In this document: in pieces, positions 1,625-47,778 of the stretch
How positions within the stretch are numbered: the stretch's first letter is position 1
Layout of the letters: every line of letters starts with the position of its first letter
Assembly: GCA_944324795.1 (NCBI GenBank)
Contig: CALUXR010000005.1
Span: 1 to 64,000, forward strand
Direction of reading: 5' to 3'
Source of the DNA: an uncultured Acholeplasmatales bacterium
Lineage (GTDB): Bacteria > Bacillota_I > Bacilli_A > Acholeplasmatales > Anaeroplasmataceae
Length of the DNA: 64,000 bases
Position numbers and translations under genes: made by a program
Notes under the pieces: generated by a model
Told to the model about the DNA's origin: nothing
Databases searched by the model: none
Seen by the model: the letters and a program-made list of their open reading frames with translations, nothing else

Positions 1625-1636
1625 ATAGACCCCCTA

Positions 1637-1654
1637 TATTACATATATGTAATA
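1637..1654. promoter_or_regulatory. 18-bp perfect palindrome upstream of the IS ORF pair
   Basis: TATTACATATATGTAATA is a perfect 18-bp palindrome just upstream of the Shine-Dalgarno of the minus-strand ORF at 1007-1624. A dimeric repressor operator controlling transposase expression is a reasonable guess. In such AT-rich DNA chance palindromes also occur. Confidence 0.35.
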
Positions 1655-1746
1655 GAATTATAACAAAAAAACAATTAAAAAAACATATGTCAATATTAAA
1701 AAATAGATTTTTTGATGCGTTTATCCTAATTTTAAATAAAAAAAAC

Positions 1747-1775
1747 TTGCATAAAAGCATACATTATAGTAAAAT
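1747..1775 (+). promoter_or_regulatory. Predicted sigma-A promoter of rplM-rpsI
   Basis: TTGCAT (1747-1752), a 17-bp spacer and TAAAAT (1770-1775). The spacing is ideal and the site lies about 65 bp before rplM. An overlapping inverted repeat (ATAGT, then ACTAT) surrounds the -10 box. Confidence 0.55.
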
Positions 1776-1808
1776 ACTATGCGGTACATTTTTATTATAT
1801 CCACAGCC

Positions 1809-1828
1809 CTTAAATAAATTTAAGGAGG
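1809..1828 (+). promoter_or_regulatory. Leader hairpin overlapping the rplM Shine-Dalgarno
   Basis: CTTAAAT-AA-ATTTAAG (1809-1824) is a perfect 7-bp hairpin whose 3' arm runs into the Shine-Dalgarno AAGGAGG (1822-1828). Folding would partly occlude the ribosome site. Leaders of L13 operons are known autoregulatory targets in Firmicutes; assigning this hairpin to that role is inference. Confidence 0.4.
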
Positions 1829-1838
1829 AATAAAAATT

Positions 1839-2273
1839 ATGAAAACATATATGGCTAATAATGAAACTGTAAAACATGATTGGTATGTTGTTGATGCAAC
1901 AGGTTTAACTCTAGGTCGTTTAGCTACTGAAGTTGCTACAATCTTAAGAGGTAAACATAAACCTACTTATACTCCACATGTAAACTGTGGTGACAACGTT
2001 ATAGTTATCAATGCTACTAAAGTTAAATTAACTGGTAAAAAGTGGTCAGATAAATTATATCGTTCACACTCAGAATACAATGGTGGCTTACGTACTTTAA
2101 CTGCTGAGGAATTAATGGCTAAATATCCTACTAGAATGGTAGAATATGCTATTAAAGGTATGTTACCTCATACTAAACTTGGTGATGTTCAACGTAAACA
2201 ATTATATGTTTATGCTGATGCTAACCATCCTCATCAAGCACAAAAACCACAAGAATTAAAGGTAAAGGCATAA
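1839..2273 (+). CDS. rplM: 50S ribosomal protein L13
   Basis: 144 residues, the normal bacterial length. L13 binds 23S rRNA early in large-subunit assembly. Diagnostic stretches are [47 protein letters not shown], and GMLPHTKLG near the C-terminus. The gene has a strong Shine-Dalgarno (AAGGAGG) and is followed after 16 nt by rpsI, the classic L13-S9 operon. Codon use is regular, as expected of a highly expressed gene. Confidence 0.98.
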
Positions 2274-2289
2274 GGGAGGAGTAGAAGAA

Positions 2290-2685
2290 ATGGCAAAATT
2301 AGTTCAATATTTAGGTACAGGTCGTCGTAAAAGTTCAGTTGCTAGAGTTATTTTAAGACCTGGTAAAGGTTCATTTACTGTTAATGGCCGTACATTTGAA
2401 GACTACATTCCATCAGCAGCTCTTCGTTTAGACGTTTTACAACCACTTGAATTAACTGAAAATGTAGAAAAATTTGACATTATCGTTAATGTTTGTGGTG
2501 GTGGTATTACAGGTCAAGCTGGTGCTATTCGTCATGGTATTACTAGAGCTTTACTTGAAGTAAATCCTGAATATCGTCAAACTTTAAAACCTGCTGGTTT
2601 AATTACACGTGATTCACGTGTTAAAGAACGTAAAAAGTATGGTCTTAAAAAAGCCCGTCGTGCAAGTCAGTTCTCAAAACGTTAA
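2290..2685 (+). CDS. rpsI: 30S ribosomal protein S9
   Basis: 131 residues, full length. S9 sits in the small-subunit head, and its basic C-terminal tail reaches the P-site tRNA. Typical segments are [14 protein letters not shown] at the N-terminus, [19 protein letters not shown] in the middle, and a C-terminus ending QFSKR with [17 protein letters not shown] before it. It is co-transcribed with rplM, has its own GGGAGGA ribosome site, and is followed by a terminator. Confidence 0.98.
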
Positions 2686-2726
2686 TACATGTTTCAAATT
2701 TAAGCGATATAAAAAATATAATAAAA

Positions 2727-2762
2727 GGCAAGGACTTCTCACCCTTGTCTTTTTTTGTTTTT
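2727..2762 (+). terminator. Rho-independent terminator after rpsI
   Basis: A 7-bp stem (GGCAAGG with CCTTGTC, one G-U pair) and a 9-nt loop, followed by a long T-rich tail from 2750. Confidence 0.85.
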
Positions 2763-2785
2763 TTAATAAAAAGTTTATATTATAA

Positions 2786-2815
2786 TTGACAGTAATAACT
2801 AAGAAAGCGTATACT
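2786..2815 (+). promoter_or_regulatory. Promoter of the 1670-residue lipoprotein gene
   Basis: A perfect TTGACA (2786-2791), an 18-bp spacer and TATACT (2810-2815). GAAAGCGTATAC inside the promoter (2803-2814) matches the Firmicutes cre consensus at about 12 of 14 positions, so catabolite control is possible but unproven. Confidence 0.6.
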
Positions 2816-2849
2816 ATAATCACAAAAAAGAGAAAGGAAACGGAGAAAA

Positions 2850-5800
2850 ATGAAAAAGATTTTGTCAATTTTAGCACTAATCCTAGTGATTGTGTTAGCA
2901 GCTTGTGATGATAATGCTCAAGTTGAATTAAAAATTGATGGTATTAAAGGTCATACAGATGCCGTAATCGATAATGAAAATAAATCTATTAGTTTCAATG
3001 TTGATAATAGTATTGCTACTTTTGATGTAGCTGACATTTTATTACCAGAGATGATTGATGTAAATGTTTATTCTGATGAAGCTCATCAAAATAGTCTTGA
3101 AGGCGATTTAAATCTTGAAGTTGGCTTAAATACTTATTATTTAAACATTTACTATACTGAAGACTCATCTATTAATGAAAATTGGAAATTAGAAATTACT
3201 CGTTTAAATATAGAAGTTGGTATTAAAAATATAGCTGTAAAGGAATTAAAATCAACTTATGTATTAAATGAATCTCTAGCAAGTGGTACATTACTTGTAA
3301 CATATTTAGATGAATCTACTAAAGAAGTTGCTATTACTAGCGATATGGTAAGTGGTTTCGACACTTCAAAAGTTGGTAGTGGTACAATGCGTATTACATA
3401 TAATGGTCAATTTGTTGATTATCCTTATATTGTAGGAGAAACAATTGATGAAATTGTAAGTGTTAATACAGCTGTTAACTATTATGTAGGTGAAGCATTT
3501 AAAGGTGGTACAATCACAGTTAAAATTGGTGATACAACAAAAGAAATAACAATTATTGATTCAATGGTAAGTGGCTTTGATAGTTCAAAACCTGGTCAAG
3601 TTGTTTTAAAAATTACATATTTAGATAAAGTTAAAGAAATAGTAATAAATGTTGTTAATAAGCCAGAATCTGATTTTGAAATGCCTGAAGAAACAACAAT
3701 TGTATTTGACAATATTAAAGATGATTTTGTAAATAATTTTGCAAATATTATGACTATTATTGATCCTTCTTTAACTATTGATAGTGCTAAAGAAATGCTT
3801 GAAGGCAAAATGAATAGTGAAGTTGGTCAAGAAGCAACTAATAATATTATTTCTATAATTCAAAAAGTTGGTTTAAGTGAAACTGAAGTTAAAGAAATAA
3901 TTGCTTTACTAGCTGATGAAGATGTTAAAGTTGCTGTTAGAGACTTTGCAGAAATGGTAAACCAATCACCTGAATCAGGTGCAGAAATGATGTCTTTATT
4001 AATTGGTTTTTATGAAAAACATACTAATACAGTACTTAGTGTTTTAAAACAAATTAAATCATATTTAGATGATGATCAATTAACAGTTTTAGTAGTAGAT
4101 GTATTAATACCTTTAATGACTTCATCTTCTGTCGGCTCAGGTAATGAGCAAATTTATTATTATTTAATTGATATGGTAAGTGAACCACTTCAATTAACTT
4201 ATGAAGCTTTAATTGCTAAATTAGAAGAAAACCCAGAACTTAGTATAGTTGTAGATTTCATAAATAAAGTTAATAATTATGAAAAAGAAGATATAACATT
4301 AGAATATAGTGAAGCTAAAGTTATGGTTTCAGTTCTAAGTGATTTAATTGATATTTTAGTAGAACATCCTACAGAATTTTTAGAAATTGTTAAAGGAATA
4401 AATTCTATAGCTAATAGTCAAAGTGGTCCTTCAATGGAAGATTTAGCTAATTTAGCTAAGAATGCAGCTGTAATAATTGATGAATTATATAAACAAACAA
4501 ATGGTTTCTTAACTGCTGATGATATTGCTAAAATAATTATTAATATGTGTGAATATTATTCATATAGTGATTATTTATCAATATCTGTAACGACTGATTT
4601 AATTGTTCAACTTGCTAAAAATTTAGATGTTGTAGTAGATATAGCTAAAGATATTACAGCTAGTGATATTGAAGTTATAATGTATGTTATTAATTCTATG
4701 CAAACAGGTGAATTTGAAGGTGATTTATTAATTAAAGCATCAAAAATCTTACTACCTCTAGCAGAAAGAATTAAAAATACTCCAAGTTTAAGTAATGCAA
4801 TTGGCATGTATTTAGCTTTAGAAGGAATGCCACAAACTTATGTTAGTCAACTTGTAGATTTAATCATTGAAACAGCAGCTAAAGCAGAAGGTAGTATCGA
4901 TGATGCAGGTTTACAAGAAATAATGGAAGAAATTCAACCACAAATGGATGGACAAATACAAGTCAGTTATAAAAATAATGGTTCTGTTCCCCTTGTAAAG
5001 AAAGGCAGTTCAGATGATGAAATAATTAATGTTCTTAATGATTCATTAGAAGTAATTTATTTTGATTATACTAATTCAACTAGTCAATCTAATCCCATTA
5101 TAATTAATAAAGATAATATTAGATTAAGTGGTAGTAGTGAAGCAGGTTATAAATTAGCATATTTAACTCAAGGTAATATAACTCAACATATTGTTTATTT
5201 CGTTTATGAAAATGAAAGTGATTTTGAAGTTATTAATATGAGTGATTTAACAAATTTATATGATATAGTTTATTTCATGCCATTAAATGGTGATACATTA
5301 GCTGAAAATGGTATGTATAAAGCAACAGGTGAAATCGCCCCATATGCATCTGATAAATTAAATTATCTTTCAGGAACAATTAAATATAAAGGTACAAATT
5401 GTTATTTCACAGTTTCAGGAAATCGTGAAAACACTACATATATTGTTGATAGTAGTAGTGTTGGTTTAAAAGATGGTTATATTAAAGTTTCTGGTATAAC
5501 TGATTTATATTTCCCAATTCAAGTATATGTTTATGATGAAGAAAATCCTATATATACGTATGATAATATTAGTGTTAATTATACGGCTAGTTATTTAGGA
5601 CAGATGAATAGCTATGATGCAGGAATTAGTTCTGATAATGTTGTTGCTGTATTGCAAAATTCAACCATTACCGATATAAGTATTAAATATTTAAGAGAAA
5701 ATTATATATTTAATGCAAGTTATGATTATATTGATATTTCTAAAGATGAAATCAATTTAGATCTTGATACTTCAGTTGTAGGCATACAAGAAGCTATATT

Positions 5801-32238: not shown

Positions 32239-32269
32239 TAGGAGAAATTTTACATAGTAGGTGAAATTT

Positions 32270-35200
32270 ATGAGAAAGAAAATTATAATAATTGTCTCCA
32301 TTTTAGCAATAATTGGTATCGCTATCGGAGTTACAGCTTTAATTAATAATAAAACAAATAATAAAGGCCCGGTTGAGGCTTATGGATATACAACAACCAC
32401 GATGTCGCGCCCAACTGATGGAACAACGATAGATGATTATAATAGTTATGATAATTTAGCTATTGTTGCCGGAGTTATGGCAAATGCGGATTTTAATGGT
32501 GTTACAGAAGGGGAAGTTAAAGCTAAAGTAGCTTTTATCAACTACACTCAAGATGTATATAATATTAGAACTATTATAGGTGATGAAGGTTTTCAACAAG
32601 CAATCTCTACCTCAAGTTTAAAATCAGTAGCAATTCAAAAATATTTTTTATTTGCTGAGGATAAAGCTTTAACTAGAAATCCTGATAAAATAAATGGTAA
32701 AGATACTACATGGCTTGATGAAACACCACAAGTTTATTCAACTAATCAATATTTAAATATATATGGTTGGTTACCTAATCAAATATCATCATATATTTTA
32801 TGTAAGGAATCAATACTTGAAATATCAGATATAATTTTAAATGATGATGAAACTTATTCAATAAATTTAAGTCTAGATCCGAATATAGCTCCTGCTAATT
32901 ATCAATATGAAGTTAAAACTTATGGTGGATCTAGTGATTTTCCAAGTTTTTCTAGTATTAATTTAACTATAAAATTTGATGCAAATTGGCAATTATTAGA
33001 AATATCAAGTGACGAAGTTTATGATATTACAATGCCTGTAATAGGTAGTATTACCTGTACAGCTAATATGACAGAAACATTTACTTATGATAATTTAGAA
33101 ATTAAAGATCGAGATTTCTTCGCTGATTATTTTGATTTAACTCCTTCAGATAATGTACCGACAACACCAGAAGAATTAAAACCAACCGATTATTTTATGT
33201 ATGGTTTTGGTAATTATTTAAATGGTGATATTTTAACAGCTGATATATCAATAAATATTAATGATAAATTAATAAATGGAACACTATCTTTAGACATTTT
33301 AAATAATAAATATATTTTTAAATCTAATGATTTATTAGTAAATGTTATAAAAGATGATATTTATTTATCTTATGATGAAATTAAAATAAAAACAAATCTT
33401 AATGAATTAACTAATTTATTATCAACTACAGATTTAAATACAATGCTTGATACTACAGCCCTCATGCAAGCATTAGATAGTAGTGAAATAATTAAAGAAA
33501 ATGATAAAATCATCTTAAAAGCTAATTTACCAATATTAAATCAAAATATAGCTGTTGAGTTTAGTTTTAATAATGATTATAGTATTAATTATATTAAAGC
33601 TAATTTAAGTATTAATGATATTAATATCAATATTGATGCTAAAATAAGCCCTAATAAATTAGAAATAAATGAAGATTTTAATACTTATCAAGATTTAGCC
33701 AATTTAAATTATTTAATAGATGATATTAAAAATATAATAAATAATAAAGCTTTAAAATTAGATATTAATTTTAATAAAGATGACATTATAGTAAATGGAC
33801 AAATTAAGGCTTCATTTAAAGATAATTTATTAATTAATGGAATATTAAATATCAATTATAATAATCAAGATATTATTGCTAAAATAAATTATAAAGATAA
33901 TATAATTTATCTTGATTTAGCTGGTTTAAAATTAAGTTTAGATACAACTGTTATAACTAATAATATAGATAAAAATGAAATAGATATAAATAAAATAATA
34001 GATCTTATTTATAATATTGATTATAAAAAATTAATAAATAATTTTAATTTAACTAATATCTTAGAATTAGGAATTGATTTATCTAGTTATTCATTATCTA
34101 ATTATAATTTAACAATTAAAGAAGAAAATGAAGGATTTAGTATAAATATAAATGAACTTAATTTATCTTTAATAATTAATCCATTAAAAGAAAATATTAT
34201 AAATGATATTGAAGGTAAATATTATGATATATCAAATATAATAAATAATAGTGATAAAATAATTGATTTATTAAAAGAAGAATATTTAAATATAAATTTA
34301 AATACAACTATAAATTATAATGATATTAATATTCCAATTAATTTAGATGTTAACATTAATATGTTAAATAAAGAAATATATGCTAAAGGAAGTATAAATT
34401 TATTTAATAATATTTTAAATATTGAACTAATTTATAAAGATAAATTAGTTATAAAAATTGGTAATAATCTAATAGCTGATTTAACAGATTTAAATATCAA
34501 TAATTTAAATGAATCTATCTTAGATTTAAGTTTCTTAAATGATATATTAGATAAATTAATCATAAATATTAATGATAATAATTTATTATTAAATATAGAT
34601 AATATTAATATATCAGGAATTAATATAAATAATTTAAATTTAAATATAACTAAAGGTAATGAATTTGAAACACCTACATATAATCCTAATTTAAATACGA
34701 CAGATTTAATTAATTTAATTAATAATATTAATAAAATTATAGATATAATTAGTAAAGATAATATTAATATTTTATTTAATTATAATGGTATTGAAGGAAA
34801 TATTATTATTGATAAAGAATTTAATATTGAAGCTTTAATTAATATTAATGATCTAGAATTTAAAGTTAATTATTATAATGATGGTAGTATTTATCTAACA
34901 TATAATAATATAAGTATTTCTACAAATATAGATGAATTAATAAATATTATTAATAAATATTTTAATAATAGTGATAATGAATTAAGTTTAGATTTAAATA
35001 ATTTAATTAATAATTTAGAAATAAGAGAAGATGAAATTAATTTAAATATTTTAGATTTTATAATAAATTTAAAAATTAGTGATGTAATAAAATTAAATAT
35101 AAATGATATTAATTTAGAAATAACTAATACAAAAAATAATATTAGTGATAAACCATTAACTAGTATATCTTTAAATTTATTATTACCATATATTGATAAA

Positions 35201-38200
35201 TTAATTGATTTTGTAAATAATAATTATTTAAATATTAATATAAATACTAATATTAATAATTTAATTAATATTGATGGTTTAATAGAAATTGATATTAAGA
35301 ATTTAATAATAAAAGGAAATATTAAATTAAATATATTAGATAATATATTAGATATAGAATTATTATATAAAGATAAATTATATTTAAAGATAGGTAATAA
35401 TATAATTAGTGAAATAAAATTAAATGAATTGTTAAAACATATAAATGATGATTTTAATATCGATTCAAATAATTTAATTAATAAAATTGAAGTAGATAAT
35501 GGATTATTAATAAATATCTTTGGTATTGATTTAAAATTAAATATTAATGATAATAATTTATTATTAAATATAGATAATATTAATATATCAGGAATTAATA
35601 TAAATAATTTAAATTTAAATATAACTAAAGGTAATGAATTTGAAATACCTACATATAATCCTAATTTAAATACAACAGATTTAATTAATTTAATAAATAA
35701 TATTAATAAAATTATAGATATAATTAGTAAAGATAATATTAATGTTTTATTTAATTATAATGGTATTGAAGGAAATATTATTATTGATAAAGAATTTAAT
35801 ATAGAAGCTTTAATTAATATTAATGATCTAGAATTTAAAGTTAATTATTATAATGATGGTAGTATTTATCTAACATATAATAATATAAGTATTTCTACAA
35901 ATATAGATGAATTAATAAATATTATTAATAAATATTTTAATAATAGTGATAATGAATTAAGTTTAGATTTAAATAATTTAATTAATAATTTAGAAATAAG
36001 AGAAGATGAAATTAATTTAAATATTTTAGATTTTATAATAAATTTAAAAATTAGTGATGTAATAAAATTAAATATAAATGATATTAATTTAGAAATAACT
36101 AATACAAAAAATAATATTAGTGATAAACCATTAACTAGTATATCTTTAAATTTATTATTACCATATATTGATAAATTAATTGATTTTGTAAATAATAATT
36201 ATTTAAATATTAATATAAATACTAATATTAATAATTTAATTAATATTGATGGTTTAATAGAAATTGATATTAAGAATTTAATAATAAAAGGAAATATTAA
36301 ATTAAATATATTAGATAATATATTAGATATAGAATTATTATATAAAGATAAATTATATTTAAAGATAGGTAATAATATAATTAGTGAAATAAAATTAAAT
36401 GAATTGTTAAAACATATAAATGATGATTTTAATATCGATTCAAATAATTTAATTAATAAAATTGAAGTAGATAATGGATTATTAATAAATATCTTTGGTA
36501 TTGATTTAAAATTAAATATTAATGATAATAATTTATTATTAAATATAGATAATATTAATATATCAGGAATTAATATAAATAATTTAAATTTAAATATAAC
36601 TAAAGGTAATGAATTTGAAATACCTACATATAATCCTAATTTAAATACAACAGATTTAATTAATTTAATAAATAATATTAATAAAATTATAGATATAATT
36701 AGTAAAGATAATATTAATGTTTTATTTAATTATAATGGTATTGAAGGAAATATTATTATTGATAAAGAATTTAATATTAATGGTCTTATTAATATAAATG
36801 GTGAAGAAATAAGCATTAATTATATAGATAATTTATTATATATTAGTTATGGTAATATTGGCCTTAAAGGTACAATTAATGATTTAATTAATATAATTAA
36901 TGAATTTAGTGATAATAAAGTTGATAATATTAATTTTGATTTAAATGATTTAATTAAATCAATTTCTACAACAGAAAATAGTATTAATTTAAATATTTTA
37001 GGATTAGATTTAAATATAGAAGTTAGTGATAGTATCAACATTATTGAAAAGAATAATAATATTTTAATCAATATAGCTACTACAACTACTAATATAAGTG
37101 CTATTAAAGATATTAATTATTTAGATGTTAATGTAATATATTTGTTTATTCCAAGTATTAAAGAATTATTAAATAATAAAACTATTAATTTAGATTTAAA
37201 TACTAATATTAATAATATTTTAATAAATGGTTTAATTAATATTGATTTAAATGGAAGAATTTATGCTGATATAAAATTAAATAATAAGATTAATTTATTA
37301 TTAAGTTTAAATAATAATATTATGAAGATTAAATTTAATAATAATGTTATTGAAGTTGATTTAAATAAATTGATTAATAATTATTCTAGTTTAAGTTCAT
37401 TATTTAACTATTTAAAATATGAAAATGAAGAATTATTATTAGGATTAAATATTAAAGATATTAATCTTAACTTAGTTATTGATAAAGATTTAAATATTAA
37501 ATTAAATGATTTAAACGTTAATAATATTATAATTAAAGATAGTTATATTAATACTTCATTTAATAATTTAGATATTTTAGATATTAATGATGATATTACA
37601 ATTAAACATGATGATTTAATTTCTATTATTGATGAAATTTATAAATTAATTGAATTATTTAATAATGAAGTAATTAATATTAAATTAAATACTGAATTAA
37701 TTGCTGAAGAAACGAAGTTTATAATTGATGGTAATTTTAATATTAATTTAAATGAATTTAGTTTAATTGGTAGTGTTAATTTTATAACTAGTGCGGGATT
37801 AAAACATATTGTTTATATTAATTATTTAAATAATAATTTAAGTTTAGCTTATGGTAATTTAGGAATTGATTTAAGTGTTTCAGAATTAGAATTGTTAATA
37901 AATAGAATAATTGAGATGTTTAATATTGATAATAATATAAGTTTAGATTTTGATTTATATAAAATTATTAATAGTTTAGAATTTAATTATAATAATGGAT
38001 TAAATGTATCTTTAGATTTATTGAATTTTGGCCTAATTAAGCTAAATTTAAATGATAATAAAATTAATATTTCTGATATTAATTTTGATGTTTTAAGTTT
38101 AAATAATTTAAATGTTTCTATTAATTTAGAAGATAGAGTTGATAATTTACCAAACATTAAATACTTAAATTATAATGATTTAAATATTTTATTAGACTAT

Positions 38201-39694
38201 GTTTTAGAAATTATTAATTTAAGTAAAGAAGAAGGATTTAGTTTTAATATTTTAGGAACTATTAATTTAAATGGTGTTAATTATAATATTAATGGTGAAA
38301 TCTTAATTTTATTAAAAAATGGGTTTGAATTAAAAGCTCTTATTAATGTTGGTGATGAACATTATTTAGAAATATATCGAGTTATTGAAGATAATAAAGC
38401 TAAATATTATGCTATATATGATAATCTATTATTAAATGATGAAGGTGAAGAATTAAAAACATCATCATTGAATTTTAAAGCTAATGAAGATGATTTAATG
38501 GGTTTAATTAATACATTATCTAATTTCTTTAATTTTGATTTTTCAAATATTGAAGGTAATTTAGCTGAACTTAATGGCTTTAATATTATAGATATTGTTG
38601 ATAAGATTGATTTTTCTAAATTATTAAAATCTATTAATATTATTAATAATGATAACGAATTAGCTTTAAATATTATTATTGGTAAAGAATTATTATCTTT
38701 AAATAATGATATTACTTTAAGTGTTGTTGCAAATAAAGGAGAAAACTTTAGTTTAGCTAGAATAGAAGTTATTAATCTTGGAATTAGTTCTATTAATATT
38801 TCTAATTTAGAAATAGATTATAATGGTATTTATAATAATGATATTGAAGTTCCTTCATTAAATTATTATGATTTGTCGATGTTAAATCCATTATTACAAA
38901 CAATATTTAATACAGCATTATTAACTGATTTTAATATTAAAGGAAATATTAATGTAAATGCTAAATTAATAGGTATTAATGTTCCGATGAATATTGCTTT
39001 AGATGCTAAAATTAAAAGAGTTGATGGAAGTAATATTCCAGAAATCTATATTAAATTAGCAAATATTCCAATTTTAGGTCTAATTAATAATGATACACCT
39101 CATAGTGCGATTACTAATGCTAATAGAACATTAGAAATATTATTTAAAGATGGTTATGTTTATCTAAATAGAATTGATAGTTATAAATATTGGTTTATAA
39201 ATCATAACTATTATAAACAATTAAAGTTAGCTAGTAGTGATTTTATGAATGATATTTTATATTATTTACTTCAATATGGTTTTGGCTTTAGTGAAAAAAT
39301 AATGAATGCGATAAATGATGGTATTAGTACAGACCATACTATTGATTTTACAAATGTTATTACTGATTTTAATACTACAGAAAATAATGATTTATATTCT
39401 ATTGGTATTAATTTGGCTGAAGTTACAGGTAATGATATGTTAGATTCATTTACATTAGATATATATCCTACTAATAAATATGAAAAAACATATTTAGGAA
39501 AATTAGCATTTAATGTTCACATGCCACTTTTAGATAATGTTGCAGAAATTGATATTTCAACATCTGATTTAACATTAGTTAATATTGGTGATGATATTGA
39601 TTTATCATATTTATATAATTTTATAAATAATTATAAACATGAAGTAGGTGTTAAAATGACATCTACTAATGGAACTGATTGGGAGAATGAATAA
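32270..39694 (+). CDS. Giant repetitive extracellular protein with N-terminal signal anchor
   Basis: About 2474 residues from the ATG at 32270 (AGGTGA upstream; a GTG nine bases earlier is less likely). The N-terminus RKKIIIIVSILAIIGIAIGVTALI is an uncleaved anchor or signal peptide. The first 290 residues are ordinary in composition. From there to about 2300 the protein is an unusual Asn/Ile/Leu/Asp-rich series of short alternating strands such as LNIDNINISGININNLNLNITKG and LLYKDKLYLKIGNNII, recurring every 100-200 residues. The C-terminal 250 residues are more complex again. No enzyme motif is visible. The strand pattern could form long curved sheets like LolA- or AsmA-type folds, which is speculation. 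One frame stays open across 7.4 kb, so the gene is maintained. Confidence 0.75.
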   Translation: MRKKIIIIVSILAIIGIAIGVTALINNKTNNKGPVEAYGYTTTTMSRPTDGTTIDDYNSYDNLAIVAGVMANADFNGVTEGEVKAKVAFINYTQDVYNIRTIIGDEGFQQAISTSSLKSVAIQKYFLFAEDKALTRNPDKINGKDTTWLDETPQVYSTNQYLNIYGWLPNQISSYILCKESILEISDIILNDDETYSINLSLDPNIAPANYQYEVKTYGGSSDFPSFSSINLTIKFDANWQLLEISSDEVYDITMPVIGSITCTANMTETFTYDNLEIKDRDFFADYFDLTPSDNVPTTPEELKPTDYFMYGFGNYLNGDILTADISININDKLINGTLSLDILNNKYIFKSNDLLVNVIKDDIYLSYDEIKIKTNLNELTNLLSTTDLNTMLDTTALMQALDSSEIIKENDKIILKANLPILNQNIAVEFSFNNDYSINYIKANLSINDININIDAKISPNKLEINEDFNTYQDLANLNYLIDDIKNIINNKALKLDINFNKDDIIVNGQIKASFKDNLLINGILNINYNNQDIIAKINYKDNIIYLDLAGLKLSLDTTVITNNIDKNEIDINKIIDLIYNIDYKKLINNFNLTNILELGIDLSSYSLSNYNLTIKEENEGFSININELNLSLIINPLKENIINDIEGKYYDISNIINNSDKIIDLLKEEYLNINLNTTINYNDINIPINLDVNINMLNKEIYAKGSINLFNNILNIELIYKDKLVIKIGNNLIADLTDLNINNLNESILDLSFLNDILDKLIININDNNLLLNIDNINISGININNLNLNITKGNEFETPTYNPNLNTTDLINLINNINKIIDIISKDNINILFNYNGIEGNIIIDKEFNIEALININDLEFKVNYYNDGSIYLTYNNISISTNIDELINIINKYFNNSDNELSLDLNNLINNLEIREDEINLNILDFIINLKISDVIKLNINDINLEITNTKNNISDKPLTSISLNLLLPYIDKLIDFVNNNYLNININTNINNLINIDGLIEIDIKNLIIKGNIKLNILDNILDIELLYKDKLYLKIGNNIISEIKLNELLKHINDDFNIDSNNLINKIEVDNGLLINIFGIDLKLNINDNNLLLNIDNINISGININNLNLNITKGNEFEIPTYNPNLNTTDLINLINNINKIIDIISKDNINVLFNYNGIEGNIIIDKEFNIEALININDLEFKVNYYNDGSIYLTYNNISISTNIDELINIINKYFNNSDNELSLDLNNLINNLEIREDEINLNILDFIINLKISDVIKLNINDINLEITNTKNNISDKPLTSISLNLLLPYIDKLIDFVNNNYLNININTNINNLINIDGLIEIDIKNLIIKGNIKLNILDNILDIELLYKDKLYLKIGNNIISEIKLNELLKHINDDFNIDSNNLINKIEVDNGLLINIFGIDLKLNINDNNLLLNIDNINISGININNLNLNITKGNEFEIPTYNPNLNTTDLINLINNINKIIDIISKDNINVLFNYNGIEGNIIIDKEFNINGLININGEEISINYIDNLLYISYGNIGLKGTINDLINIINEFSDNKVDNINFDLNDLIKSISTTENSINLNILGLDLNIEVSDSINIIEKNNNILINIATTTTNISAIKDINYLDVNVIYLFIPSIKELLNNKTINLDLNTNINNILINGLINIDLNGRIYADIKLNNKINLLLSLNNNIMKIKFNNNVIEVDLNKLINNYSSLSSLFNYLKYENEELLLGLNIKDINLNLVIDKDLNIKLNDLNVNNIIIKDSYINTSFNNLDILDINDDITIKHDDLISIIDEIYKLIELFNNEVINIKLNTELIAEETKFIIDGNFNINLNEFSLIGSVNFITSAGLKHIVYINYLNNNLSLAYGNLGIDLSVSELELLINRIIEMFNIDNNISLDFDLYKIINSLEFNYNNGLNVSLDLLNFGLIKLNLNDNKINISDINFDVLSLNNLNVSINLEDRVDNLPNIKYLNYNDLNILLDYVLEIINLSKEEGFSFNILGTINLNGVNYNINGEILILLKNGFELKALINVGDEHYLEIYRVIEDNKAKYYAIYDNLLLNDEGEELKTSSLNFKANEDDLMGLINTLSNFFNFDFSNIEGNLAELNGFNIIDIVDKIDFSKLLKSINIINNDNELALNIIIGKELLSLNNDITLSVVANKGENFSLARIEVINLGISSINISNLEIDYNGIYNNDIEVPSLNYYDLSMLNPLLQTIFNTALLTDFNIKGNINVNAKLIGINVPMNIALDAKIKRVDGSNIPEIYIKLANIPILGLINNDTPHSAITNANRTLEILFKDGYVYLNRIDSYKYWFINHNYYKQLKLASSDFMNDILYYLLQYGFGFSEKIMNAINDGISTDHTIDFTNVITDFNTTENNDLYSIGINLAEVTGNDMLDSFTLDIYPTNKYEKTYLGKLAFNVHMPLLDNVAEIDISTSDLTLVNIGDDIDLSYLYNFINNYKHEVGVKMTSTNGTDWENE
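34564..36780 (+). repeat. 975-bp in-frame tandem repeat inside the giant gene
   Basis: A 975-bp (325-codon) unit occurs about 2.3 times: copies begin near 34564, 35539 and 36514. Segment 34831-35805 and segment 35806-36780 look identical base for base by eye. The part of the first copy before 34831 differs from the later ones at a few positions. The near identity indicates a recent tandem duplication. Confidence 0.9.
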
Positions 39695-39741: not shown

Positions 39742-39756
39742 AATAAAGCGTTTTCT
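39742..39756 (+). promoter_or_regulatory. cre-like operator before pstS
   Basis: AATAAAGCGTTTTCT is identical over 15 bases to the site at 14699-14713 upstream of adhE. It abuts the first PhoP box. Its core AAAGCGTTTTC matches the cre consensus, except at the first two positions of the 14-bp site. Confidence 0.45.
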
Positions 39757-39783
39757 TTACAACTTTTTTACAACTTCTTTACA
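39756..39783 (+). promoter_or_regulatory. PhoP boxes: three TTTACA direct repeats at 11-bp spacing
   Basis: TTTACA occurs at 39756-39761, 39767-39772 and 39778-39783, each exactly 11 bp after the previous one. This matches the Bacillus PhoP box (TTHACA hexamers with about 5-bp spacers on one helix face). It lies upstream of pstS, and the cluster encodes its own PhoP and PhoR, so autoregulated phosphate-starvation control is strongly suggested. Confidence 0.85.
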
Positions 39784-39792
39784 GGTTTATGG

Positions 39793-39821
39793 TTTTTTGA
39801 AAATTGTAAAATCTATATAAT
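39793..39821 (+). promoter_or_regulatory. pstS promoter with poor -35 box
   Basis: TATAAT lies at 39816-39821. The -35 position (39793-39798) is TTTTTT, as expected for an activator-dependent promoter with PhoP boxes just upstream. Confidence 0.55.
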
Positions 39822-39846
39822 GGTAGCGGAAAAAGGAGAAGAGAAA

Positions 39847-41775
39847 ATGAAAAAAATTATTTTAGGCTTATCTAGCTTATTATTATGTGGTTTTGCCTTA
39901 GTTGGTTGTACTGATACACCAAACGTTCCTAATGATCCAGATAATAGTGGTGAAAATGGTGATAATCAAGGTGGAAATCAAGGTGGAAATCAAGATGAAT
40001 TTGATTTAAATGCTGAAATTCAAGTTTATTCAAGAGATACTTCGTCTGGTACACGTGATGGTTTCTTTACAGCTTTAGGAAGAGAAGATATGAAGGGTGA
40101 TGACAAATTACTAGCAGAAGGTACAAGTATCGTAGCTGGTAATGGTGATATGATCAATTCTATTAAAAACGATAAATATGGTATTGGTTATGCATCACTT
40201 GCTTCAGTAGAAGAAAATGCTGATTCTGTTAAAGGCTTAACATTTAATGGTGTTGAAGCTAGCGCTAAAACTGTAATCGATGGCAGTTATAAATTATCTC
40301 GTAATTTTAATTATATTATTTCAACTCATTTAAATGAAAATGAGGAAGTTATGGTAAATGCTTTCTTAGCATATATGAATTCTAAAGAAGGTTTAGGAAT
40401 CATTGCTAGTGAAGATGGTATTTTAGAAAAAAATATTAATGATGCTATGTCTTGGCAAGAATTAACTACATCTAATGAAGATGTAAAACAAGCTTTAGCT
40501 TTATCTGAACAAGGTACAAAAGTATCAATTAATTTAGGTGGTTCTACATCAGTAGAAGGAATCGCAACAGCTTTAACTTCTTCATTTGAAGAATTAGTTG
40601 AAGGTTTTGTTCCAAGCCATAATCATACAGGCTCTGGTGATGCCTATAAAAATACTCAAGGAAGCGGCTCTACAGGTACAAGCGCATTACAAATTGGTTT
40701 CTTATCAAGAGAAATAAAATTAGATGGTGATGAAAAGGCAGCAGAAGGTACTTATGGTAGAATTTGTAAAGATGGTATTGTAGCTGTTATAAACCCAGCT
40801 AATACTACATTAACTGACGCTAGTGCTGCATTATTACTTGCAATATTTGATGGTACTCTTACAACATGGAATGCTGTAAAAAATTATGAAGGTCCATTAA
40901 CAGGAGATATTCAAGTTTATTCAAGAGATACTACATCTGGTACACGTGATGGTTTCTTCACAGCTTTAGGCGAATCAAGTTTAAAGGGTGATGATGAAGC
41001 ATTAGCTGAAGGTGTAAGTATCGTAGCTAGCAATGGTGATATGATCAATTCTATTAAAAACGATAAATATGGTATTGGTTATGCATCACTTGCTTCAGTA
41101 GAAGAAAATGCTGATTCTGTTAAAGGCTTAACATTTAATGGTGTTGAAGCTAGCGCTAAAACTGTAATCGATGGCAGTTATAAATTATCTCGTAATTTTA
41201 ATTATATTATTTCAACTCATTTAAATGAAAATGAGGAAGTTATGGTAAATGCTTTCTTAGCATATATGAATTCTAAAGAAGGTTTAGGAATCATTGCTAG
41301 TGAAGATGGTATTTTAGAAAAAAATATTAATGATGCTATGTCTTGGCAAGAATTAACTACATCTAATGAAGATGTAAAACAAGCTTTAGCTTTATCTGAA
41401 CAAGGTACAAAAGTATCAATTAATTTAGGTGGTTCTACATCAGTAGAAGGAATCGCTGAAGCATTAACTTCTTCATTTAGTTCTTTAGTTAAAGGATTTG
41501 TTGCAAATCATAATCATACAGGCTCTGGTGATGCTTATAAAAACACTCAAGGTAGTGGTGCAGAAGGTACAAGCGCATTACAAATTGGTTTCTTATCAAG
41601 AGAAATTGAATTAGATGGTGATGAAAAGGCAGCAGAAGGTACTTATGGTAGAATTTGTAAAGATGGTATCGTATGTATTGTAAATCCAAAAAATAATGTA
41701 TTAAGTGATGCTGATGCAGATTTATTATTAGCTATCTTCAAAGGTGAAATAACTAAGTGGGAAGATGTTAAATAA
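39847..41775 (+). CDS. pstS: Tandem phosphate-binding lipoprotein with permuted half-domains
   Basis: 642 residues from the ATG at 39847, preceded by AAAGGAGAA. The signal peptide ends in a lipobox (ALVGC, Cys21), then a Gly/Asn-rich linker to about residue 50. Two 297-residue units follow. Each begins with the normally C-terminal half of PstS (IQVYSRDTSSGTRDGFF, GIGYASLASVEEN, DGSYKLSRNFNYIIST). It is followed by the normally N-terminal half (GGSTSVEGIA, IGFLSREI, ICKDGIVAVINP, W-x-x-V). The order is thus II-I-II-I, with one canonical I-II pair only in the middle. Most of II is duplicated as a perfect DNA repeat. It should bind phosphate for PstCAB. Confidence 0.88.
   Translation: MKKIILGLSSLLLCGFALVGCTDTPNVPNDPDNSGENGDNQGGNQGGNQDEFDLNAEIQVYSRDTSSGTRDGFFTALGREDMKGDDKLLAEGTSIVAGNGDMINSIKNDKYGIGYASLASVEENADSVKGLTFNGVEASAKTVIDGSYKLSRNFNYIISTHLNENEEVMVNAFLAYMNSKEGLGIIASEDGILEKNINDAMSWQELTTSNEDVKQALALSEQGTKVSINLGGSTSVEGIATALTSSFEELVEGFVPSHNHTGSGDAYKNTQGSGSTGTSALQIGFLSREIKLDGDEKAAEGTYGRICKDGIVAVINPANTTLTDASAALLLAIFDGTLTTWNAVKNYEGPLTGDIQVYSRDTTSGTRDGFFTALGESSLKGDDEALAEGVSIVASNGDMINSIKNDKYGIGYASLASVEENADSVKGLTFNGVEASAKTVIDGSYKLSRNFNYIISTHLNENEEVMVNAFLAYMNSKEGLGIIASEDGILEKNINDAMSWQELTTSNEDVKQALALSEQGTKVSINLGGSTSVEGIAEALTSSFSSLVKGFVANHNHTGSGDAYKNTQGSGAEGTSALQIGFLSREIELDGDEKAAEGTYGRICKDGIVCIVNPKNNVLSDADADLLLAIFKGEITKWEDVK
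40141..40565 (+). repeat. 425-bp perfect direct repeat in pstS, copy 1
   Basis: By eye this is base-for-base identical to 41032-41456, offset 891 bp (297 codons, in frame). Flanking sequence continues similar but diverged. Confidence 0.93.
41032..41456 (+). repeat. 425-bp perfect direct repeat in pstS, copy 2
   Basis: Second copy of the repeat at 40141-40565. Identity at synonymous sites implies recent duplication or gene conversion. Confidence 0.93.
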
Positions 41776-41831: not shown

Positions 41832-42764
41832 ATGGAATTAACTAGCTCAAAAAGAAAGACTATTTTTGATGAAATATTTAAATATTTCTTTCTACTTATC
41901 GCTATTTTAGCTGCCTCATCAATAGTCTTTATTATCGTTTTCATTTTAATTCAAGGTATCAAACCTTTTGTAAATAATTATCCTGATGTTAGTGGTAGAT
42001 TAACACAGGCTGATCTTTTAACTTTCCTTACATCTAATACTTGGACTGATTTAAATTATGGTGCTTTAGGAGCTTTAGGTAATACGATTTATTTAACAGC
42101 TTTAGCTACAATTATTGCATTACCTATATCAGTTTTAACTTCTTTATTTATTGTTAGAATAGCTCCTAAATGGTTAGCTATAATTTTAAAAAATATAGTT
42201 GAGCTACTTGCGGCTATACCTTCTATTATTTTTGGTTTATTTGGTGTTGGTATTATAAATCCTCTAGTTAGAGATTTTGCTGAAGGATTTGGAATTCAAA
42301 CTGCTGGTGGCTTATCTGGTTTATCAACAATCATAGTATTATGTATTATGATGATTCCAACTATTACAATGCTTACAATAACTAGTATGCAAGCTGTTAA
42401 AAAACCTCTTATTGAAGCGAGTTTAGCTCTTGGGGCAAGTAAAACTCAAACCGATTTTAAAATCGTAATGAGTGGAGCAAAATCAGGAATTACAGCCGCT
42501 TTAATATTAGGTGTTGGTAGAGCACTTGGTGAAGCAACTGCCGTATCGATGGTTTGTGGTAATAATATTACTGGCCCAAATTGGAATTTATTTGATACAA
42601 CTAGAACATTAACTTCAACTATGATGCTTGGTTTGCATGAATCAAGTGGTATTGCCTACGACATTCGTTTTAGTGTTGGTATTTTATTAATTGTAACTAT
42701 TTTAGTAGTTAATGTTATTTTAAATTTAGTAAAGAGGGTAATTTGTCGTTATGAACAAGCTTAA
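41832..42764 (+). CDS. pstC: Phosphate ABC transporter permease PstC
   Basis: 310 residues with six hydrophobic segments. It forms half of the membrane channel of the high-affinity phosphate importer. The cytoplasmic coupling loop [26 protein letters not shown], and ELLAAIPSIIFGLFGVGI, are characteristic. It has AGGAGA upstream, follows the pstS hairpin and overlaps pstA by 14 nt. Confidence 0.95.
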   Translation: MELTSSKRKTIFDEIFKYFFLLIAILAASSIVFIIVFILIQGIKPFVNNYPDVSGRLTQADLLTFLTSNTWTDLNYGALGALGNTIYLTALATIIALPISVLTSLFIVRIAPKWLAIILKNIVELLAAIPSIIFGLFGVGIINPLVRDFAEGFGIQTAGGLSGLSTIIVLCIMMIPTITMLTITSMQAVKKPLIEASLALGASKTQTDFKIVMSGAKSGITAALILGVGRALGEATAVSMVCGNNITGPNWNLFDTTRTLTSTMMLGLHESSGIAYDIRFSVGILLIVTILVVNVILNLVKRVICRYEQA

Positions 42765-44028
42765 TGAAAATAATAATCTAATTACTACTGTAGTAGAAGA
42801 AACTAATCAAAATAAAATAAGAAAAAATAATTTAATGGCTAAAAGAATTGCGGATATATTACGTTTAATACCGACCTATTTATCAAGTATTTTAGTAGTT
42901 GTAGTATTAGCCGCTATCATTATTTATGTCTTTGTAACAGGAGCTCCGGCTTTTTCATTAAAATTATTAACTGATGATTATAAAGAAAAAATAACAGCTG
43001 TTACTTATACGGGTGATTTAACTACTAATTTTGAAGACCCTAATATTAATGGTTCATATTTTAGTATTAAATATGGTATAGCTGTTGCTGATAGTAGAGA
43101 TACAGCTAATGAAAAATGTATGATTGTTACATATATTGCCGATAATTCACCTTTAAAAAATGTTCAAATAGCAAATGGTGAGGGCAATTATAGTGTTTCA
43201 GTAGATGATAGATTAGATACAGTTATGTTATATGATGAAGATGGTCTTATTGAAGTAATTGGAAAATCTAAAGGAGCAGAAAAATTGGTTGAAGCTCTAG
43301 ATTCTAGTACAGGAATAATGAATATGCAGTGCAAGACCTCTGGTGGTGGTGCTAGAGGAAGTTTAATAACAACCATTTATTTAATTTTATTAACTTTAAT
43401 AATCGCCCTTCCAATTGGTGTTATTGCTTCTATTTTTTTAACTCAATATGCTCGCGATGGGATTGTAAGAACAATCATTACGACAATGATTGATATGACA
43501 TCTGGTATTCCATCAATCATCTTTGGCTTTTGTGGAGCTTTGATATTTATTCCTTTTTGTGACGGTACATTTAATACAAGTGGCTATAGTGTTTTAGCAG
43601 GTGCCTTTACTATGACTATTGTTTTATTGCCAACCATTATTAAAACTGTTAGTGAAAGTTTGCTTGTAATACCTCGTCATTATACAATGGCTAGTTTAGC
43701 TCTTGGGGCAAGTAAAACCCAGACAGTATTTAAAGTTATTTTACCTAATTCAATTCCAGGTATCTTAACAGCTACCTTGCTTTCAATAGGAAGAATTATA
43801 GGTGAATCAGCAGCCTTGATATTTGTTATGGGAACAAGCATTCAAGATGATATAAATGTGACAAAAGCTTCAACATCTTTAGCTGTTCATATTTGGTCTA
43901 TTACGCAAGGTGAAAGTCCAAATTATGGAGGAGCTTGTGCAATTGCGATATTTATTTTGATTGTCGTATTGGTATTGTCTATTTTAGTGAAACTAATTTC
44001 AAAGAAAATGAATAAGATGGCGGTGTAG
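42751..44028 (+). CDS. pstA: Phosphate ABC transporter permease PstA with extracytoplasmic insertion
   Basis: 425 residues, against about 280-300 usually. TM1 is at about 42-63. The remaining permease core starts near residue 203 ([21 protein letters not shown]) and includes [17 protein letters not shown] and the coupling loop [21 protein letters not shown]. Residues about 75-200, between TM1 and TM2 and so outside the cell, are an added domain. Its [45 protein letters not shown] and [11 protein letters not shown] resemble a PDZ-like fold (inference). The domain could contact the unusual PstS. It overlaps pstC and is followed after 2 nt by pstB. Confidence 0.9.
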
Positions 44029-44030
44029 TT

Positions 44031-44801
44031 ATGCAAAATACAGAAATTAAAAATGAATTAGATTTTGAAATTAATAATGTAAATTTATTTTACGGGGAAA
44101 AACATACTTTAAAAAATGTTAATTTAAAAATAAACCATAATGAAGTTACAGCTTTTATTGGTCCTTCTGGATGTGGTAAATCAACATTACTTAGATGTTT
44201 AAATAGAATGAATGATTTAATCCCAAGTTGTAAAATTGAAGGAGATATTTTATTTAAAGGTGAAGATATTAAAGTAATGAATCCGATTGATTTAAGAACG
44301 AGAGTAGGTATGGTTTTTCAACAACCAAATCCATTCCCAATGTCAATATTTGATAATGTTGCTTATGGTCCACGTTGTAGTGGTATTAAAAATAAAGCTA
44401 AATTACAAGAAATTGTAGTTGATTCTTTAAAAAAAGCAAGTTTATATGAAGAAGTTAAAGAAAGACTTAAAGATAATGCCCTTGGTTTATCTGGTGGACA
44501 ACAACAACGTCTTTGTATTGCTAGAGCGATTGCGATGAGGCCAGAAGTAATCTTAATGGATGAACCAACAAGTGCCTTAGATCCGATTGCCACTTTAAAA
44601 ATAGAAGAACTTATTGGTGAACTTAAAAAAGATTATACGATCGTTATAGTTACCCATAATATGCAACAAGCTACCCGTGTATCTGATAAAACAGCTTTCT
44701 TCTTGCTTGGTGAAATGGTAGAATTTAATGAAACGACAGAATTGTTTAAAAATCCTAGAGATAAAAGGACAGAAGATTATATTACAGGAAGGTTTGGTTA
44801 G
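44031..44801 (+). CDS. pstB: Phosphate ABC transporter ATPase PstB
   Basis: 256 residues, normal length. It powers the PstCA permease by ATP hydrolysis. Walker A is [19 protein letters not shown]. The Q-loop is in [23 protein letters not shown], the signature is [16 protein letters not shown], and Walker B is [12 protein letters not shown] with the following VTHNMQQA histidine. RMNDL and FPMSIFDN are PstB-specific. It sits between pstA and phoU with gaps of 2 and 5 nt. Confidence 0.97.
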
Positions 44802-44806
44802 AATTT

Positions 44807-45445
44807 ATGAAATTAAAAGATGAAATTGAAAACCTTAAACAAATGGTTTTAAAAATGGGTGATGTTGTAGTTGATAATATTGATAGTTCAATCAATAATT
44901 ATTTAGGTAAAACTAATGAATTAGTTAATGATGATATTGTTGATAAATTTGAACGTTTAATTGAAGAAATGTGTTTAACAATCTTATTAAGAGAACGTCC
45001 TTATGCCTCTGATTTAAAAGAAGTAACAGGTATTTTAAAATTAGTAAGTGACTTAGAACGAATTGGGGATCATGCAGAAGATATTATAACTTTTACTAAT
45101 AAATTAAAAGAAGTCAATATTAGAACAAAACATTTAGAAGCTATTGATAATTTAGCTCAATATGTTTTAAATATGTTAAAGAATTCAATTAAAGCGTATA
45201 TCAATAGTGATACTAAACTAGCTCAAGAAATAATTGATAGCGATGATTATGTTGATAATAAATATGATGAAATAGTTGAATCTTTAGCCCATATAGAAAG
45301 TAAAGAACAAGGTTATCTACCTTTTGCAATTTATAGTACTTTAGTGGTAAAATATCTTGAAAGAATTGCTGATCATTCAGTTAATATTGCTGAATGGGTA
45401 ATTTATATTGTCAGTGGTTTTTATAAAGATAAAAAAATATATTAG
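44807..45445 (+). CDS. phoU: Phosphate signalling regulator PhoU
   Basis: 212 residues forming two three-helix PhoU repeats. The metal-binding E/DxxxD segments are recognisable as LVSDLERIGDHAEDI in repeat 1 and KYLERIADHSVNIAEW in repeat 2. PhoU connects Pst transporter activity to the PhoR kinase and restrains uptake when phosphate is plentiful. It is placed between pstB and phoP, so transporter, signal adaptor and two-component system form one locus. Confidence 0.94.
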   Translation: MKLKDEIENLKQMVLKMGDVVVDNIDSSINNYLGKTNELVNDDIVDKFERLIEEMCLTILLRERPYASDLKEVTGILKLVSDLERIGDHAEDIITFTNKLKEVNIRTKHLEAIDNLAQYVLNMLKNSIKAYINSDTKLAQEIIDSDDYVDNKYDEIVESLAHIESKEQGYLPFAIYSTLVVKYLERIADHSVNIAEWVIYIVSGFYKDKKIY

Positions 45446-45457
45446 GGGCGTGGTATT

Positions 45458-46123
45458 ATGTCATTTCTAATCTATTCAATCGAAGATGATAAAGATATTG
45501 CTCAAATAATCAATAAAACACTTTTAAAACAAGGTTATGATGTTAGAACATTTAATAATGGTAAAGATTTTTTTCAAGCTTTTAATATCAAAAAGCCTGA
45601 TTTAATTCTTTTAGATTTAATGTTACCAGATATTTCTGGTCTTGATATATTAAAAGAAATTAGGAAGGATAATGAAAATGAAGATATCGATATCATTATT
45701 GTCTCTGCTAAGCATATGTTAGTAGATAAAGTAGAAGGTTTAGATTTAGGAGCCGATGATTATATTGAAAAACCTTTTGATTTATTAGAATTAATGAGTA
45801 GAGTAAATGCTAAATTAAGAAGACATAAAAAAATTAAAAGACATTTAGATTTTGGTAATTTAATTTTAGATCAAGATAAAAGAGAATGTTATTTTAATCA
45901 TAAATTAATTGATTTAACTAATAAAGAATTTGATATTTTAATGACTTTAGCCTTAAATAATAATAAAGTATTAAATAGGGAAGAAATATTTAAAAATGTT
46001 TGGGGAACAAGTTTTGGTTTTGAAACGAGAACTCTTGATATGCATATTAAATCAATTAGAAAAAAGACAAATGATGATTTAATTAAAACTATTTATGGGG
46101 TAGGATATAAAGTAGAATTATGA
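45458..46123 (+). CDS. phoP: OmpR-family response regulator, probably PhoP
   Basis: 221 residues. The receiver domain (1-120) has the phospho-acceptor Asp53 in LILLDLMLPD, acidic DD at 10-11 and Lys in IEKPF. The C-terminal winged helix (about 128-221) has the OmpR/PhoB pattern LTNKEFDILMTLALNNNKVLNREEIFKNVWG and DMHIKSIRKK. Its position after phoU and the PhoP boxes before pstS support assignment as the phosphate regulator. It overlaps phoR by 4 nt. Confidence 0.9.
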   Translation: MSFLIYSIEDDKDIAQIINKTLLKQGYDVRTFNNGKDFFQAFNIKKPDLILLDLMLPDISGLDILKEIRKDNENEDIDIIIVSAKHMLVDKVEGLDLGADDYIEKPFDLLELMSRVNAKLRRHKKIKRHLDFGNLILDQDKRECYFNHKLIDLTNKEFDILMTLALNNNKVLNREEIFKNVWGTSFGFETRTLDMHIKSIRKKTNDDLIKTIYGVGYKVEL

Positions 46124-47778
46124 AAAAAAGATTTATAATTTTAGCCTCTTTAATATCTTTATTATCTTTATTATTATTATATTTAGTATCAGTTTTAATG
46201 ATTGTTAATGAAAATAAAAATAAAGCTAAAGAAGAAATAAATATTTATCTTGAAGTAGCTGCATCTTATTTTGATGGTACAAATTTTGAAGAAACATCTA
46301 ATATTATGTTAGGTTATGATGATCGATTAAGATTAACCTTTATTGACCTAGATGGTAAAGTTATCTATGATAGTACTTTAAAATATAGTATTGAAAATTT
46401 AGATAATCATTTAAATCGTCCGGAAATAGAAAATCCTGGTGAAGTTATAATTAGAAAATCAGACAATACTAAAGATGATATGATGTATATTTCAACTATC
46501 GATCATAATATTTATTTAAGACTTGCTTTTAACACATCTTATTTTACAACTTCAACAACACTATATGTCGTAGTAGCCTTGATTGCTATTATAATTATTT
46601 TTAGTTTATCGCTTATAATATTATATTTTTTGTCAAAAAAAATGTTAAAACCTGTAGATAAAAAAATAAATGAATTAGCTAATATAGCAGATGCTGATAT
46701 AATATTTAAAGCTGACACAATTGATAAATTACCAGAAATAATTGCAGCTTTAAAATTATTAATTAATAATAAAATTAGTCAAATTAAAGAAGAAAATATT
46801 AAAAATGATACAATTATTCAAGCTATAGATGAATGCTTAATTCTAATAAAAAATGATATTATAACTTTAGTTAATCAAAAAACATTAAATATCTTTAAAT
46901 TAGAAGAAGAAAATATAATTGGTAAAAATTATATATATTTAACTCGTAATAGTTTATTATTAGATAATATTTATGAAGCTATCGAAAAAAGAATTAGAAA
47001 AAGATTAACAATCGTTATCGACAATAAGACTTATGATTGTAATATTATTCCTTTTAATTCATCACAAATATTAATATCATTAAAAGATATAACAGAAAGA
47101 GAACAGATAGAAATAATAAAAAAAGATTTCTTCGCTAACGCAAGCCATGAATTAAAAAGTCCTTTAACTTCAATAATTGGTTATGAACAAATGATTTTAA
47201 ACGGAATTATAGATGATAAAGAAGAAATAAAAGAAGCTTCTTTAAAAATATTAAAAGAAGCTAATAGGATGAATCAAATAATAATTGATATGTTAGAATT
47301 ATCTAATTTAGAATTTTCAAAAACATATGATTTAAAAGAGGAAAACATTACAAATTTATTAAATGATGTAATAAAAAGTTATCAAACTAAAATTAATAAT
47401 AAAAATATTAAATTAAATTTAAATATTGATAATGTTATATTAAATTGTAATAAAGAACAATTAGAAACATTGTTTTCTAATTTATTAGATAATGCTATTA
47501 AATATAATAAAGATAATGGTACTATTGATATCAGTTTAACTAAAGAATATTTTAAAATTAAAGATAGCGGTATAGGTATTCCTAAAGAAGAACAAAATAG
47601 AGTTTTTGAAAGGTTTTATCGTGTTGATAAAGCCAAGTCAAAAGAAACGGGTGGTACTGGTTTAGGACTTGCGATTGTTAAACATATTTGTGAAAAGTTC
47701 GGTTATTCGGTAACATTAGAGAGTGAAGTTGATAATGGGACAACTTTTATAATTAAATTTCAATTGATATTTAACTGA
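46120..47778 (+). CDS. phoR: Sensor histidine kinase, probably PhoR
   Basis: 552 residues. TM1 (about 5-28) and TM2 (about 148-171) bracket an extracytoplasmic region of about 120 residues, followed by a PAS-like segment (about 225-325). HisKA has His343 in ANASHELKSPLTSIIGY. The ATPase has the N box LLDNAIKYNKDNG, G1 IKDSGIGIPKEEQNRVFERFYRV and G2 GGTGLGLAIVKHI. The layout matches Bacillus PhoR. The last gene of the pst-pho locus, it ends at a bidirectional terminator facing ispG. Confidence 0.9.
   Translation: MKKRFIILASLISLLSLLLLYLVSVLMIVNENKNKAKEEINIYLEVAASYFDGTNFEETSNIMLGYDDRLRLTFIDLDGKVIYDSTLKYSIENLDNHLNRPEIENPGEVIIRKSDNTKDDMMYISTIDHNIYLRLAFNTSYFTTSTTLYVVVALIAIIIIFSLSLIILYFLSKKMLKPVDKKINELANIADADIIFKADTIDKLPEIIAALKLLINNKISQIKEENIKNDTIIQAIDECLILIKNDIITLVNQKTLNIFKLEEENIIGKNYIYLTRNSLLLDNIYEAIEKRIRKRLTIVIDNKTYDCNIIPFNSSQILISLKDITEREQIEIIKKDFFANASHELKSPLTSIIGYEQMILNGIIDDKEEIKEASLKILKEANRMNQIIIDMLELSNLEFSKTYDLKEENITNLLNDVIKSYQTKINNKNIKLNLNIDNVILNCNKEQLETLFSNLLDNAIKYNKDNGTIDISLTKEYFKIKDSGIGIPKEEQNRVFERFYRVDKAKSKETGGTGLGLAIVKHICEKFGYSVTLESEVDNGTTFIIKFQLIFN

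Follow-up and report, generated by a model that had tools for sequence, protein, structure and literature searches.

The pstS gene of an uncultured Acholeplasmatales bacterium raises the question of how a phosphate-binding protein is organized when the halves of its sequence follow one another in the order II-I-II-I. Here, I denotes the half of PstS that contains GSTSVEG and DGIVAVINP and II the half that contains SGTR, canonical proteins being I-II and permuted ones II-I. These are sequence halves and not the two lobes of the protein, and we take the cut to fall inside the second lobe, as judged from the known PstS fold. The gene lies on contig CALUXR010000005.1 of assembly GCA_944324795.1 (1.70 Mb, 51 contigs), of which we analyzed positions 1 to 64,000 of the forward strand, a 64,000-nt stretch hereafter called the window. 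It is the only pstS copy in this genome and occupies an open reading frame at 39820-41775 on the plus strand, which codes for 651 amino acid residues, or 642 if the ATG at 39847 is used.

Profile HMMs built for each half detected the order II-I-II-I in this lipoprotein (E values of about 1e-46 to 1e-54), and a repeat period of 891 nt, or 297 codons, divides it into two 297-residue units that each start with the SGTR half, as the original prediction had described. All features lie on the plus strand. The chain opens with a signal peptide and an LVGC lipobox (39847-39909, lipid-modified cysteine at 39907-39909), comparable to those of its relatives, followed by a low-complexity Gly/Asn/Asp tether (39910-40014; low pLDDT over residues 1-49). 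Unit 1 comprises half II (40015-40425, E = 1.4e-54), an intra-unit linker (40426-40518) with high pLDDT in the unit model, and half I (40519-40869, E = 5.9e-46). A 12-residue inter-unit junction, NAVKNYEGPLTG (40870-40905), leads into unit 2, made of half II (40906-41316, E = 3.5e-54), its own linker (41317-41409) and half I (41410-41760, E = 1.7e-47), the latter ending in ITKWEDVK. The II-I-II-I architecture of the frame at 39847-41775 is confirmed as real and is not a chance pattern. The protein also passes the PstS model TIGR02136 with 215.8 bits against a cut-off of 206.6, its best stretch being the central I-II pair, while matches to EF-hand_15, DUF7625 and other unrelated Pfam families fell below their cut-offs and were taken as chance. 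The phosphate-contacting motifs GST, TGS, SRE and SGTR are found in the protein, and across eight aligned array segments neither unit shows any change in the residues of its SGTR, GGS, GS and SR motifs. The proposal that one lipid anchor carries two binding sites is supported, and both sites probably bind phosphate.

The two units share 88.8% identity in protein and 90.3% in DNA, and 425 nt in their middle form a single identical run. Coming from an assembly of 51 contigs, such an identical stretch could reflect a unit duplicated by assembly error, a pitfall that had been foreseen for this locus. The copies nevertheless differ at both ends, DNA identity dropping to 60-80% in the first part of II and in the last part of I; between them we counted 32 nonsynonymous and 23 synonymous codon differences. 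The same architecture recurs in six further species of the order, one of them with a frameshift in the first unit, and although the tandem genomes are mostly multi-contig drafts, the tandems of G076 and G152 reside in single-contig assemblies. We consider an artefact extremely improbable on these grounds.

We then compared the unit with PstS proteins of known structure. A profile of single II-I units aligns colinearly with 4H1X, a single natural II-I chain that is PstS2 (SP_2084) of S. pneumoniae, profile positions 7-289 matching chain positions 4-265, and the chain end of the window PstS, ITKWEDVK, aligns at the same place as that of 4H1X, LTTWDKIK. In contrast, canonical PstS proteins (4Q8R, 4GD5, 1TWY and others) match this profile in two stretches of swapped order. 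An AlphaFold model computed from one window unit and 30 natural relatives reached a pLDDT of 95.6 and a pTM of 0.89, with an ordered linker of two short helices between II and I. In Foldseek searches its best PDB match was 4H1X (TM 0.88 by target, rmsd 3.0), whereas canonical PstS scored a TM of about 0.35 at most. Each unit is accordingly modeled as a permuted PBP that aligns colinearly with 4H1X and shares its fold, in keeping with the reading of the protein as tandem circularly permuted phosphate-binding units. That the halves had been mis-assigned, each unit being a standard PBP, is rejected because the HMMs and Foldseek agree on the permutation. The II-I arrangement itself is not new, being structurally known from 4H1X, and the assumption that no PstS of this order had been described does not hold, even if a literature search with limited coverage of subscription journals, and thus weak as evidence of absence, turned up no article that deals with a permuted PstS or with 4H1X.

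Which halves pair within the full-length chain is a separate matter. The original prediction suggested that the outer II1 and I2 could form a second, permuted PBP beside a central I1-II2 pair of normal order, or else that chains could swap halves to form dimers. Such a nested arrangement derives some support from the canonical Pfam model PF12849, whose best stretch is the central I-II pair (residues 221-478), and from the 12-residue junction, which lies within the 12-16 residues found between I and II in canonical relatives nested in the permuted clade and is also long enough for a canonical I-II core, a point that counts against the pairing we favor. The full-length AlphaFold model, however, built from a shallow alignment of 8 sequences (pLDDT 83, pTM 0.52, the five models ranging in pLDDT from 83 to 54), again has 4H1X as its best PDB match, superposed over one II-I unit with a TM of 0.84 and an rmsd of 3.5, while canonical PstS proteins superpose with an rmsd of 23-32 Å and a TM of about 0.3-0.4. 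The central pair is therefore not one globule in this model, which disfavors a canonical central domain; the canonical topology, with I before II within one domain, is not that of the window PstS. Moreover, a lone II-I unit gives a complete and confident model, like the single-unit relatives and 4H1X, and the intra-unit linker is conserved and ordered whereas inter-unit junctions vary in length, being Pro/Glu-rich in a triple array. Because coevolution cannot distinguish units that are nearly identical, the evidence for the pairing comes from the model and the linkers. Their simplest reading is that II1 would pack with I1 and II2 with I2, without a central I1-II2 globule, and we regard nested or swapped halves as quite improbable.

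PstS proteins consisting of one II-I unit occur widely across the class, and in the window's order they are the usual form. Among 160 genomes of the order surveyed, 72 had a match: about 57 code for a single II-I protein, 7 for a tandem (G000, G003, G004, G053, G070, G076 and G152, the last with a frameshifted first unit), 3 for a canonical I-II protein (G015, G019 and G047) and 1 for a permutant cut at a second site (G087), the rest being fragments. In another order of the class, locus L114 of G403 (1281-4010, plus strand) holds a 910-residue open frame that codes for three units in a row, II-I-II-I-II-I, with Pro/Glu-rich inter-unit linkers of 23 and 18 residues; G196, a sister species of G403, has one PstS unit. 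One scan of genome contigs for a tandem in a named species returned single-unit relatives and no tandem. In the tree, 4H1X groups with the permuted L120, L121 and L128, close to the canonical L125 and apart from the bulk of the permuted proteins. Two unusual frames were encountered in the survey. In G196, the PstS frame L133 (1364-2464, plus strand) ends in a sequence resembling that of a PhoR-type kinase C-terminus (RFYRVDKGRS...) without pstC after it, which looks like an operon deletion or an assembly join. In G101, L044 (1451-3460, minus strand) is an open frame that runs from a CorA-like protein into PstS downstream of it, uninterrupted by a stop codon.

Comparison of the units within and between arrays points to their concerted evolution, which is apparently new for such proteins. 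When rotated units were placed in a tree (119 rows), those from the same array grouped with each other, and in four species the units share identical runs of 425-798 nt but differ in the final 30-40 codons of I. These tails are informative in the genus of G053 and G152, where 31 of 36 positions match between the I1 tails of the two species and 33 of 36 between their I2 tails, against 23 and 26 of 36 between I1 and I2 within each species. Since matches across species exceed those within species, the tandem in this genus predates the split of G053 and G152, the remainder of the units having been homogenized. In the window's genus, the I1 and I2 tail identities among G000, G003 and G004 speak neither for nor against a single ancestral tandem. 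At the other extreme, the units of L015 and L006 have diverged to 80-86% protein identity. L049 was considered as a collapsed tandem since its I tail resembles that of I1; no II remnant was found downstream and this candidate was dropped.

A different explanation is that the second unit adds no function and that tandems are short-lived neutral by-products of recombination. The scattering of tandem and single forms among close relatives would fit, as would the near-identity of units, which suggests frequent duplication or conversion, and the frameshift in the first unit of G152. The latter (L039/L072) lies close to a stretch of consecutive A, in a genome assembled as a single contig, and is either a sequencing error or the decay of one unit. 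Against this explanation, the units of G053 and G152 have kept distinct ends across speciation, most arrays retain an open frame and undamaged binding motifs in each of their two units, and the units of L015 and L006 persist despite their divergence. We find neutrality doubtful overall, while granting it an appreciable share of probability.

Two further forms suggest that such arrays can be cut again at other points. The canonical proteins L011-L013, which belong to the window's family, are nested among permuted relatives in the tree, their grouping with L014 receiving weak to moderate support in single-half trees. A tree constrained to unite the canonical proteins in one clade is rejected (delta lnL of 192), a value to be read with the post hoc choice of the group and the presence of long branches in mind. 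L011-L013 carry a C-terminal tail of 25-26 residues (for example TKNVNDAKSWDEIKNSNKDFKELCSK) that resembles the intra-unit linker of permutants (EKNINDAMSWQELTTSNEDVKQ in the window PstS; median length of 24 in single permutants), whereas canonical PstS proteins outside the clade end 3-8 residues after II, with the exception of L037, a distant weak match. This nesting and the linker-like tail suggest that L011-L013 derive from a permuted ancestor through an array. The second form, L042 of G087 (1498-2442, minus strand), reads lipobox, end of II, I and start of II, followed by pstC, and is cut in the loop that connects the RPFMFVT strand to the helix after it. G087 belongs to the same genus as G076, which has a tandem. 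We rejected a broken tandem as the origin of L042 because pstC follows directly and a search of all frames on either side of the gene found no remnant of II. As judged from its sequence, L042 is another natural circular permutation of PstS, distinct from the II-I form.

The genetic context of the window pstS is that of a phosphate importer. Downstream of the gene and in the same orientation lie pstC (41832-42764) and pstA (42751-44028), coding for the permeases, pstB (44031-44801), coding for the ATPase, phoU (44807-45445), and genes for a PhoB/PhoP-type response regulator (45458-46123) and a PhoR/PnpS-type sensor kinase (46120-47778), in the order pstC-pstA-pstB-phoU-phoB-phoR. PstC, PstB and PhoU score above the cut-offs of TIGR02138, TIGR00972 and TIGR02135, respectively, and PstA scores 191.1 bits against the 193.45 of TIGR00974; the regulator and kinase were assigned from their position and from PhoB-family and NF046044/TIGR02966 matches, respectively, that lie below equivalog cut-offs. 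In PstA (425 residues), the permease domain is preceded by a long N-terminal extension of about 190 residues, and the match to TIGR00974 covers residues 192-421. A triple Pho-box-like site, TTTACA-N5-TTTACA-N5-TTTACA (39756-39783, plus strand), precedes the ATG at 39847 by 63 nt. Zero-mismatch matches to TTTACAN5TTTACA occur in the window only at this site, whereas allowing two mismatches yields matches at chance level. TTTACA repeats are read as phosphate control from the Pho boxes of Bacillus, and by this analogy the triple site suggests phosphate control of pstS. Directly upstream of pstS, 32261-39694 codes for a 2477-residue Asn/Ile/Leu-rich repetitive protein of about 17% GC with an N-terminal membrane segment, for which no NCBIfam match was found.

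Taken together, our results give us high confidence that the PstS of this PstSCAB importer presents two complete permuted domains on one anchor and belongs to arrays that are born by duplication, homogenized and open to re-cutting. Each domain would be a natural circular permutant II-I in which the conserved, ordered linker connects the former C-terminus of II with the former N-terminus of I, and each would trap one phosphate, two per chain, for delivery to one PstCA pair. Arrays would arise when a gene with one II-I unit, the form most often seen in the order, is duplicated in tandem and in frame; gene conversion or unequal crossing-over would keep their units alike, and re-cutting at new points would produce permutants with other termini or even restore the canonical order. 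More broadly, we lean toward the view that the pstS locus of this order moves round the permutation circle via functional arrays, whose re-cutting leaves fossil linkers behind. Two sites per anchor may improve uptake.

Compared with canonical PstS (TIGR02136/PF12849; 4Q8R, 4GD5, 1TWY and 1IXH of E. coli), the window protein has the same halves, motifs and pst operon but differs from their single unit and I-II order. S. pneumoniae PstS2 (4H1X), also a binding protein of a phosphate ABC transporter, shares the II-I order and nearly the same N- and C-terminal cut; it is a single unit, and its II-I linker is unlike that of the window protein. The most likely role of the tandem is to provide two independent phosphate traps per lipid anchor that would feed PstCA, by analogy with GlnPQ, an ABC importer in which two substrate-binding domains are joined by a flexible linker of 14 residues (PMC8025302). 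Two domains, predicted from models in the window protein, and a short linker (12 residues in the window protein) are common to both, whereas the domains of GlnPQ form one chain with the permease and have different specificities and those described here are permuted, near-identical and carried on a separate lipid anchor. Two near-identical domains per anchor offer a clean system in which to ask whether domain number speeds phosphate uptake when phosphate is low. The permuted N-terminus may suit tethering, as its authors suggested for TpMglB-2 of Treponema pallidum ("Type Ic"), a natural circularly permuted lipoprotein that binds a transport substrate (PMC4990184) and differs in having a Type I sugar-binding fold, another cut site and a single unit. 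Finally, the model of permutation by duplication predicts functional tandem intermediates, which few gene families have shown; in saposin/swaposin and the DNA methyltransferases, tandem duplicates and partial forms are the intermediates (PMC3320104). Here, one orthologous gene locked in an operon exhibits singles, doubles, a second cut and an apparent reversion within one order, along with a triple in the class, natural variants that make the model directly testable. In the literature that could be searched, neither the tandem and triple forms nor the second cut and the apparent reversion seem to have been described. What sets them apart from the saposin and methyltransferase cases is that arrays, two cut sites and an apparent reversion occur at one orthologous locus in one order, and together they look like permutation by duplication in action.
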